Notes under the pieces: generated by a model
Seen by the model: the letters and a program-made list of their open reading frames with translations, nothing else
Databases searched by the model: none
What the model was told of the DNA's origin: nothing
Position numbers and translations under genes: made by a program
Source: Arenicellaceae bacterium
GTDB taxonomy: Bacteria; Pseudomonadota; Gammaproteobacteria; Arenicellales; Arenicellaceae
Length of the DNA: 64,000 nt
Reading direction: 5' to 3'
NCBI GenBank assembly: GCA_029246505.1
Contig: JAQWNC010000027.1
Coordinates: 1 to 64,000, forward strand
Shown here: in pieces, positions 2,617 to 50,873 of the stretch
Layout of the letters: each line of letters begins with the position of its first letter
How positions within the stretch are numbered: the first letter of the stretch is position 1

Positions 2617-3534
2617 ATGTCTGGATATCGACTTTTAAATTTCAAGCACCGAGGTAACCCGGTGTGTCCCGGCATTTTCGTTAATGGTCGAGTTTATAGC
2701 CTCGCACATATTTCCGCCAGTTTCCAGCTCCCCGGTCTGCCTGCTGGTTCTGTGCTCGAGGTCTTGGAGGCCTGGAGCGACTGTGACAAGGTTCTCTCGC
2801 GTGTTGCCAGCAAGATTGGCGATTTGAAACTGGAGGGCCTATCGCTAGATGATGTCGAACTGGGCGTTCCTGTGCGATATCCTCAGGCACTCTATTGTGC
2901 GGGTGCTAACTATGCCGATCATCTTGAGGAGATGACGGGGAAAAAGCCTAATAAGCAGGAAATGAGTCCTTTTTTCTTTATGAAGCCCCCTCGTCCAACA
3001 ATGGTTGCTTCCGGTGCAACCGTCGCCATTCCCAAATTTACGCAGCAACTGGACTGGGAGGCAGAAATTGCCATGGTTATAGGCCGTAAGGCAAGTAATG
3101 TCAGTAAGCATGATGCCTTGGAATACGTGGCGGGACTCACCATTCTCAATGATCTGTCTGCGAGGGATTTGATGAAACGGTTCGACGTGCCATTCCTGTT
3201 TGACTGGATTGGTCAGAAATGTTTTTTGGGGGCTGCCCCGACGGGCCCTTGGATTACGCCTTTGTCTGAGTTAGATGATCCGAACAATCTCGACATCAAG
3301 CTTTGGGTTAATGACACGCTCCACCAGGACTCGAACAGCTCACAGTTGATATTTAATTATGCCGAACAGATAGAAGATTTGAGTCGACACGTTACGCTGT
3401 ACCCTGGGGATATCATCGCTACCGGAACGCCAGCCGGAGTCGGCCATGGCAAAGGAGAATACTTAAAGGCTGGAGACATTGTGCGAGTGGAGATCGAAGG
3501 GTTAGGTGAATTAATTACCCACATCGAAGCCTGA
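2617..3534 (+). CDS. Fumarylacetoacetate hydrolase family protein
   Basis: 305 residues. The catalytic domain starts near residue 90 (YPQALYCAGANYADHLEEM) and shows the family metal and substrate residues: DWEAEIAMVIGR with the two acidic ligands, NDLSARDLMKR with the Asp, and the closing TGTPAGVGHGKGEYLKAGD. Family members cleave or decarboxylate beta-diketo acids and related enols (FAA hydrolase, oxaloacetate decarboxylase, HpcE, MhpD-like hydratase). The N-terminal 85 residues resemble the short accessory domain of the bacterial FAH group. It closes a probable three-gene transcript with VOC and YciI proteins; a ring-cleavage product is the most natural substrate, but which one cannot be told. 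Confidence 0.85.
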   Translation: MSGYRLLNFKHRGNPVCPGIFVNGRVYSLAHISASFQLPGLPAGSVLEVLEAWSDCDKVLSRVASKIGDLKLEGLSLDDVELGVPVRYPQALYCAGANYADHLEEMTGKKPNKQEMSPFFFMKPPRPTMVASGATVAIPKFTQQLDWEAEIAMVIGRKASNVSKHDALEYVAGLTILNDLSARDLMKRFDVPFLFDWIGQKCFLGAAPTGPWITPLSELDDPNNLDIKLWVNDTLHQDSNSSQLIFNYAEQIEDLSRHVTLYPGDIIATGTPAGVGHGKGEYLKAGDIVRVEIEGLGELITHIEA

Positions 3535-3663
3535 TTTTGGGCCTCTATCTAGCTTAGCCAAACCACCCTATTATTTGCTCCTTGTCAAAAAGCGGCACAC
3601 TGGAGGCAACAAAGTTACGTTAATTGCCCAAACTTAGCCGCAAGCGAAAGAATATCAAGCAGA

Positions 3664-4704
3664 TTACTCCAGGCGATCAGCGTCCCATTCGCATTCGTAA
3701 TATTGAACCTCTTCGCCCGGAACCGAAAGCCAGCTTTTCTCGAGCACCACAGGCTCGGTAAATATTTTTGGGTCGGTCGCTGTTACCGAGTAGTGCAGGT
3801 AGAGGTTATCTTCACTAATCATGAAACGCTCGACAAGCTTTAGATCCTCTGACTTTGGGATGCCCGCCTGATCGAACCAAAGAAAGTCGATTTCTGTTGT
3901 CTCGACGACAAGCATCTGACCCTCCCAACGCCCGACTGAGACACCATAAGGACTTAAATCTCCTTCAGACGGCTTCCCCTTCATATGGAACCGGCGCGTA
4001 ACGCCGAGCTCTTCGTGTTGTAGCAATATATCGCCACCTTCCTGAACGAATGCCATCGGATTTGGGCTATCCATGATCGCCGGTATAGAATTCTGGCAGT
4101 GGATAAACGGATTGTTGGTTATTTCATCCCAGTTTGCTTGAGTCGTGCGAGCATAGTCGGTCAGCGGATAAGTATCGTTCCACAGCCCACGAACCACTCC
4201 GCCCTCAAGGTCACCGGTAAGATTATGGCTCCAGACACGAAAGAGATCGGTCGAATCTTCGGAAGACTCGGCGCGCAGATTCTCCTGGTAGAATTCCTCC
4301 GAAATCACCAACTTAGTGTTCCAACGCGGCCCCGAAGACTGCCCAGCAACCAGCTCTCGACCGTCAGCTAGTAACGAGTTGGTTACGAACATCGCGTTCT
4401 GGTTGCGCCTGCCACGAAAACCTGCGACGCGGATCGTCTCTCCGAGCGGGTACTGCTCTGGGCCGACGCCGCGGCGACGCAGCGCGATGTGTGAGTCCTC
4501 GTCGAGATGCCACTCGGTCTCGGTGCCATCTTCTTCGGTCACCATCAACGTAAGCTGCACGTGGGGGCTGCGCCAGTTTACCTCGGTCAGAATACCGGTG
4601 ATCTCTACTTCTTCGTTACGATCGTAATGAACGTTCGGGTTGTGGTGCGCAAAGCTGGCTAACGGTAAAATGAAGAATACGGCTAATGTGGCCACGCGCC
4701 TCAT
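3664..4704 (-). CDS. Secreted DUF6152-type protein
   Basis: 346 residues with a cleavable signal peptide (MRRVATLAVFFILPLASFA, then HHNPNVHYDRNEEVEITG). The first 110 mature residues match the DUF6152 pattern: a leading HH, a small OB-like barrel (GILTEVNWRSPHVQLTLMV) and GxxFRGRRNQNAMFVTN-type strands. The remaining two thirds are uncharacterised and lack recognised catalytic motifs. I chose ATG at 4704 because AAAGGAGG lies three bases upstream and because a signal peptide begins exactly there; the open frame reaches 4803 but would bury the signal. The gene faces the FAH gene tail-to-tail with 129 bp between. Function unknown; genes of this type are common in marine proteobacteria that degrade complex organics. 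Confidence 0.65.
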   Translation of the reverse strand: MRRVATLAVFFILPLASFAHHNPNVHYDRNEEVEITGILTEVNWRSPHVQLTLMVTEEDGTETEWHLDEDSHIALRRRGVGPEQYPLGETIRVAGFRGRRNQNAMFVTNSLLADGRELVAGQSSGPRWNTKLVISEEFYQENLRAESSEDSTDLFRVWSHNLTGDLEGGVVRGLWNDTYPLTDYARTTQANWDEITNNPFIHCQNSIPAIMDSPNPMAFVQEGGDILLQHEELGVTRRFHMKGKPSEGDLSPYGVSVGRWEGQMLVVETTEIDFLWFDQAGIPKSEDLKLVERFMISEDNLYLHYSVTATDPKIFTEPVVLEKSWLSVPGEEVQYYECEWDADRLE

Positions 4705-50148: not shown

Positions 50149-50301
50149 TCTCGACTCGTGGATAACTACTCGCGTAGTGAGTAAATACGCTGCCTCACCT
50201 AGCGTTGATAGTAATAATAACTAATAGAATCAATTACATAAAGATTTAAACTAGAATCATCATCCTCTTAAATTCGTATATAACTTTAAGGAGCACCAAT
50301 C

Positions 50302-50820
50302 ATGAAATGGTTACTGTCCCAACGTCATCTTACCGCCCGCCTTATCGCCGGATCCCTATTACTACTCCTGATAGGCTGCGATACGCCGAACTATGAATAC
50401 TTGCACTTGCCAGGAACAGAGCCCGCCGCAGGCGGAAACATGCCCTACACCTCGGCCATTAAAGTAAGCTCAGGAAGCATTCTATTTTTGTCAGGTACTA
50501 GTGGCGCTCCCGTACCGCATAGCCACCCACATAATCCTGCTGAATTTGATCATCTTGGCTGGGACGCCGAAGCGCAAACGATTAGAGTCATGGATCGAAT
50601 CAAAGCAACCGTCGAAGCTGCTGGCGGCGATCTTAGCGACGTCATACAAGTCACTCGGTTCGTTGTTGATATTGCAAAAAACCAAGACGAAATTACCGCT
50701 GTGATGAACCGCTACTGGGGTAAGAATCATCGGCCTGCGAGCACATCAGTCGAGATCGTTCGGCTAGCATCTGACCCACGATTTATACTCGAAGTCGAGG
50801 CTGTCGCCGTTATCGATTGA
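50302..50820 (+). CDS. RidA-fold lipoprotein lacking the catalytic arginine
   Basis: 172 residues. A long basic n-region and hydrophobic core end in the lipobox LLLIGC, so Cys26 should be lipidated; Asp27 at position +2 would favour retention in the inner membrane by the E. coli rule. The rest is a YjgF/RidA domain: ILFLSGTSG, IRVMDRIKATVEAAGGDLSD, VIQVTRFVVDI and VEIVRLASDPRFILEVEAVAV. The deaminase arginine (Arg105 of E. coli RidA) aligns with Ser147 in PASTSVE, so imine hydrolysis is unlikely. A His-rich insert (PHSHPHNPAEFDH, residues 72-84) is not usual. AAGGAGCACC precedes the start. Function unknown; ligand binding at the membrane surface is a guess. Confidence 0.8.
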   Translation: MKWLLSQRHLTARLIAGSLLLLLIGCDTPNYEYLHLPGTEPAAGGNMPYTSAIKVSSGSILFLSGTSGAPVPHSHPHNPAEFDHLGWDAEAQTIRVMDRIKATVEAAGGDLSDVIQVTRFVVDIAKNQDEITAVMNRYWGKNHRPASTSVEIVRLASDPRFILEVEAVAVID

Positions 50821-50873
50821 ACGCTTAATCGAAATTAGTTTGCCCAACTAGTTATCTCGATTACTTGTCCACA

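Follow-up and report, generated by a model that had tools for sequence, protein, structure and literature searches.

The gene for a predicted Rid-family lipoprotein

The window, by which we mean the whole 64,000-nucleotide stretch analysed here, carries on its forward strand an open reading frame for a predicted lipoprotein of the Rid family, with the following features.

50302..50820, +: predicted Rid-family lipoprotein ORF, 172 aa (ORF call and translation)
50288..50293, +: AAGGAG ribosome-binding site, read in the sequence, with matching sites in relatives
50302..50376, +: signal peptide, residues 1–25 (hydrophobic stretch by custom script)
50368..50379, +: lipobox L23-I24-G25-C26, with Cys26 invariant in 15/15 aligned members
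50440..50814, +: Rid domain PF01042, residues 47–171 (profile match, concordant with the predicted fold)
50518..50544, +: His/Glu loop H73-x-H75-P-H77-x3-E81, invariant in 15/15; HxHPHx3E fits 23/23 motif frames
50740..50742, +: Ser147 in place of RidA Arg105 (alignment with E. coli RidA)
50791..50793, +: Glu164 in place of RidA Glu120, retained (alignment with E. coli RidA)

The AAGGAG lies 8 bases upstream of the start ATG. GGAG precedes the start in 12 of the 14 lipoprotein relatives inspected, and a similar purine run occupies the matching place in the remaining two. The next in-frame ATG is Met47, past the lipobox, so a start beyond the lipobox is not upheld. Export was scored with a custom script that considers the start codon, a hydrophobic stretch and a lipobox or RR motif; by this heuristic, which is not SignalP, the protein has the signal peptide, lipobox cysteine and credible start of a bacterial lipoprotein. 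The initial annotation had named Cys26 as a lipobox residue, and the upstream ribosome site and the invariant cysteine bear this out. In E. coli, Asp at position +2 of a lipoprotein directs it to the inner membrane; here Asp27 occupies that position and suggests an inner-membrane location. No promoter-like site was found, the single terminator-like site scores at the shuffle mean, and the single short repeat pair is taken as chance.

The protein matches PF01042 with 65.8 bits against a curated cut-off of 27.3 (E = 4.6e-18). Its score with NCBIfam TIGR00004, the Rid family detoxifying hydrolase, is 49.4 bits, below the cut-off of 106.25, which places it outside canonical RidA. Of the five PF01042 genes in the source genome, one, which adjoins a SpoT/RelA-like gene (neighbour named by eye), encodes a standard RidA with the arginine; the other four have an export signal by the custom script and no Arg at position 105.

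Predicted fold and cleft residues

An AF2 model of the mature part, built with 14 sequences, reached a pLDDT of 76.9 and a pTM of 0.73. By VIA-align it superposes on 9bjv (Z 15.2, rmsd 1.7, 99 aligned), on the 2-aminomuconate deaminase AmnE (6izh, Z 14.1) and on E. coli RidA (1qu9, Z 12.9), and among the 50 matches listed the titled entries are all Rid/YjgF/L-PSP. Foldseek was concordant with a Rid (YjgF) fold, and the usual Rid trimer is probably retained. A full-length AF2 run was poor (pLDDT 50.8) and supports no claim.

Residues were numbered against the E. coli RidA sequence, which is identical to PDB 1qu9. The initial annotation had placed Ser147 at the position of Arg105; our alignment agrees, and no alignment that we made puts an arginine there. 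In addition to Glu164, equivalents in the window protein are Tyr49 (Tyr17), Ser64 (Ser30), Thr132 (Asn88) and Ser149 (Cys107). Thr132 sets the window copy apart from most of its relatives, so the cleft is variable even inside the lipoprotein family. In RidA-type proteins Arg105 grips the substrate carboxylate, and its change to Ala nearly abolishes activity, according to the available part of PMC4433059. The arginine that defines a canonical RidA imine deaminase is thus replaced, and the protein would not be a standard 2-aminoacrylate deaminase. Ser at position 105 is by itself ordinary, not rare: it occurs in 17 of 140 non-exported Rid frames in the survey below, in agreement with the figure of about 10% of RidA proteins given in the text available from the same source.

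A conserved His/Glu loop

Compared with E. coli RidA, the window protein has eight extra residues after Ser64, which make up a His-rich loop. The insert, PHSHPHNPAEFDH, spans residues 72–84 and confirms what had been described from the sequence. Judged on these sequences, conservation of the motif exceeds chance: all 15 aligned family members have H73, H75, H77 and E81, and HxHxH is found in none of 158 other Rid frames. HxHPHx3E in all 23 motif-bearing frames is the kind of conserved ligand set expected of a metal-binding protein, and its retention strengthens the idea of a metal or ligand site. Conservation suggests that the three His and the Glu most likely bind metal. In the AF2 model two of the three His have a pLDDT below 50; the loop is therefore poorly determined, and it is conservation, not the model, that points to the putative metal site.

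Members and distribution of the lipoprotein family

A single scan of genome contigs returned 12 loci at 55–82% identity from 9 genomes, all titled metagenome-assembled. The 15-member alignment comprises the window protein, 11 of these loci, L007, which stands in for the twelfth (L036) and has the same sequence, and two paralogues from the source genome. Cys26, H73, H75, P76, H77, E81, F82 and D83 are invariant throughout, and position 105 holds Ser in 14 members and Thr in one. Over seven comparisons the mature part gave a pN of 0.07–0.18 against a saturated pS of 0.75–0.88; for the signal region pN was 0.24–0.55. As estimated from these sequences, the family is under strong purifying selection.

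At E 1e-30 the family was detected in two genomes among 109 from the order and, with at most eight candidates per genome scored, in 1 of 398 genomes of a phylum sample, namely the source genome. Its distribution is patchy, in uncultured environmental bacteria. No relative was confirmed in viral contigs scanned with the family alignment, and a scan of viral contigs with canonical RidA gave one locus. Against plasmids, tblastn gave matches in 35 records, all below 60% identity, the ten listed being at 33–37%.

Export, histidine motif and arginine loss among Rid frames

We surveyed 181 distinct Rid frames from the source genome, its relatives, family-bearing genomes and the phylum sample, a non-random set of best matches and hand-picked rows. 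L168 runs off its contig and was left unscored, L052 ends before position 105, L057 gave no match, and a Tat-type copy in L202 was excluded (masked letters). HxHxH occurs in 23 of the 181 frames, and all 23 also fit HxHPHx3E. Every one of them appears to be exported: the script called 19 lipoproteins and three Tat substrates, and L191, scored 'none' because its start codon is GTG, has a lipobox behind that start and was counted by eye. Position 105 in the motif frames is Ser in 16, Met in three, Thr in two and Gly in one, with one frame cut off, so that Arg is found in 0 of the 22 readable frames.

Exported frames without the motif number 17, of which nine scored Arg and eight Ser at position 105; one of the nine, the lipoprotein L203, rests on a doubtful alignment. 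The 140 non-exported frames comprise 97 with Arg besides those with Ser already mentioned, and one further frame is unscored. With Arg scored in nine of the 17 exported non-motif frames, export and arginine loss are unlinked in general, and the hallmark of the group is the His motif together with export. A separate case is L177 (frame 1338-1911, +), a lipobox Rid frame that keeps Arg at 105, for which the script score of 'none' was kept; lipidation and arginine loss can therefore occur separately. Export was scored for 38 of 63 frames in family-bearing genomes, as against 0 of 28 among order relatives and 2 of 90 from the phylum sample. The first share is inflated, since an exported query had been used to find those genomes. 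Without the 23 motif members, the share in family-bearing genomes is 15 of 40.

A midpoint-rooted FastTree phylogeny groups the 20 motif-bearing lipoproteins in one clade (support 0.94). A 27-member group (0.92) adds to these 20 the Tat branch and four Rids scored as non-exported, of the type encoded beside Tat members. L191, L197 and L200 make up one branch (0.85), adjacent to the 15 core members; the 18 together have a support of 0.995. The His motif may have a single origin, in which case the frame counts are not independent events.

Another exported type of Rid was present in the survey: it has a plain signal peptide, Ser at 105 and FAxSLE at the six cleft positions, and lacks the His motif. 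It occurs in the source genome and relatives (L005:1489-2061, −; L059:5469-5966, −; L166, L186, L187 and L199). In L012, L171 and L172 the Rid domain is C-terminal in open frames of about 490 aa and is therefore probably fused to another domain.

Gene neighbourhoods

The window copy is solitary, between folD and a UvrD/Rep-like gene (by eye), with no transporter adjoining. In a congeneric genome tatB-tatC-folD is retained and followed by an unrelated 351-aa gene (L213:224-1279, −), and that genome's Rid copy lies on a different contig. The site after tatB-tatC-folD (window 50149-50864) is thus variable between the two genomes.

A related branch adjoins TRAP transporter genes: a DctM gene lies 0.3–2.1 kb from each of L191, L197 and L200, all three members of that branch. 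Pfam matches confirmed DctP, DctQ and DctM for two of them and DctP for the third. These genomes have 15, 11 and 7 DctM matches, so we judge chance proximity in all three unlikely. The arrangement was probably inherited, representing about one event. In the source genome, the C30 paralogue (L004) comes after a TonB receptor gene and before an Amidohydro_3 gene (signal peptide by eye), beyond which come an OsmC-like gene and later TctA, all on the same strand. L054:637-1770 is TctC-like by eye and matched no Pfam family. The neighbourhoods listed for other core members, which are short for several, showed no adjoining transporter.

Several relatives have a gene of DUF6152, a short uncharacterised family, nearby, but it was rejected as a conserved partner: the 2.64-Mb source genome has 100 matches, about one per 26 kb, and such neighbours are therefore background. 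One copy lies inside the window (4405-4662, −), 0 of 14 control genomes have the family, and its name is absent from the open-licence PMC literature searched.

A possible role in the periplasm

The initial annotation had proposed that export and loss of the catalytic residue together point to a different job, perhaps ligand or metal binding at the membrane surface. This proposal is partly supported. Conservation of the clade under purifying selection speaks for export, for a changed job and for the absence of Arg105 as a real trait; two points are to be corrected, in that Ser at this position is not rare and the two traits are not generally linked. We give roughly even credence to a non-canonical, membrane-anchored periplasmic Rid variant whose ligand or substrate is a small metabolite taken up by the cell and whose His/Glu loop probably carries a metal. 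Transport genes near some relatives favour this reading, whereas the solitary position of the window copy counts against it. The signal peptide would take the protein out of the cytoplasm, with Cys26 as its anchor and the domain presumably facing the periplasm. The Rid fold would be kept, probably as a trimer, with Ser replacing the carboxylate-holding Arg in the inter-subunit cleft. From the cleft residue Ser64, the inserted loop would present three His and a Glu, most likely holding a metal to which, in the absence of Arg105, the binding of substrate or the activation of water could fall. Anchored at the point of arrival of imported metabolites, the protein would probably bind a small organic acid or a nitrogenous product present in the periplasm, or convert it with the help of the metal. 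For this model the sequences supply family, fold, signal, lipobox, residue changes, conservation and purifying selection; we infer processing, location, trimer, metal, substrate class and activity. A bolder version is tentative and somewhat doubtful: a metal-dependent Rid branch of exported, lipid-anchored trimers, in which a three-His/one-Glu site replaces the catalytic arginine for new periplasmic chemistry tied to organic-acid uptake.

The loop might instead be structural, joining trimers into hexamers or docking a partner such as a transporter binding protein, with ligand bound without metal. AmnE offers a precedent, since it shares the Rid fold and its insert, in the same loop (Lp2, strand 3-helix 1), holds a hexamer, and TRAP genes stand near one branch of the present group. 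The AmnE insert acts by an Arg contact, however, with no His/Glu or other metal-like cluster named in the available text (PMC6742747), and a set of three His plus one Glu retained by all 23 motif frames, lipoprotein and Tat branches alike, exceeds in our judgement the usual needs of a contact loop; we regard this explanation as unlikely. Rather less probable still is an imine/enamine hydrolase for carboxylate-free substrates from exported periplasmic oxidases or dehydrogenases, for which metal would be unnecessary. It would suit the retained Glu164 and the aromatic residue at position 17, and the available part of PMC7688666 has its authors predicting that a Rid6 in a nicotine-degradation cluster clears such an intermediate. 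Keeping these residues says little, however, because changing Glu120 or Tyr17 altered S. enterica RidA little (PMC4433059, available portion); the fixed His motif is left unexplained, and the neighbourhoods inspected showed no amine oxidase. That the gene is a degenerate, functionless copy being lost is very improbable: the RidA-essential residue is gone and the genome retains a standard RidA, but strong purifying selection, and relatives in 9 further genome records that share its features, show a member of a strongly conserved lipoprotein family, not a decayed gene.

Comparison with other Rid proteins

The periplasmic variant proposed here shares with E. coli RidA the fold and the equivalents of Ser30, Tyr17 and Glu120, whereas RidA has Arg105 and Cys107, no export signal and no His loop. 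With the arginine-less Rid4-Rid7 proteins and the Ser-bearing tenth of RidA it shares the absence of Arg at 105 and the retained Glu; the available part of their description does not mention export or a His motif (PMC4433059). In the accessible text of the respective sources, OngD, a RidA-family protein of a chitin pathway, is not described as exported (PMC9537276), and a RidA-family protein among released proteins is marked signal 'No' (PMC12502724). Among the matches listed from open-licence PMC literature, none was an exported Rid protein.

Damage control is the known role of Rid enzymes, whose activity is predicted from a single arginine. Members unable to deaminate are a source of unknown biology in the view of the authors of PMC9714295, in its available part. 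A clade fixed for an export signal, a His/Glu motif and arginine loss is a concrete, testable case, and it cautions that PF01042 membership alone should not yield the name detoxifying hydrolase.

The Tat-signal Rids L164, L167 and L189 share HxHPHx3E, export and the lack of Arg, but have a Tat-type signal instead of a lipobox, Met at 105 and an adjoining second, non-exported Rid. Tandem genes of this kind, a Tat-signal Rid with YHLHPHV..E adjoining a non-exported Rid without the motif, were seen at L206:2424-3367 (−), L207:2142-3077 (+) and L208, about 2700-3700 (−), and could be a two-part Rid pair. An M20 peptidase gene lies near the tandem Rids in L207 (Pfam) and L208 (by eye).
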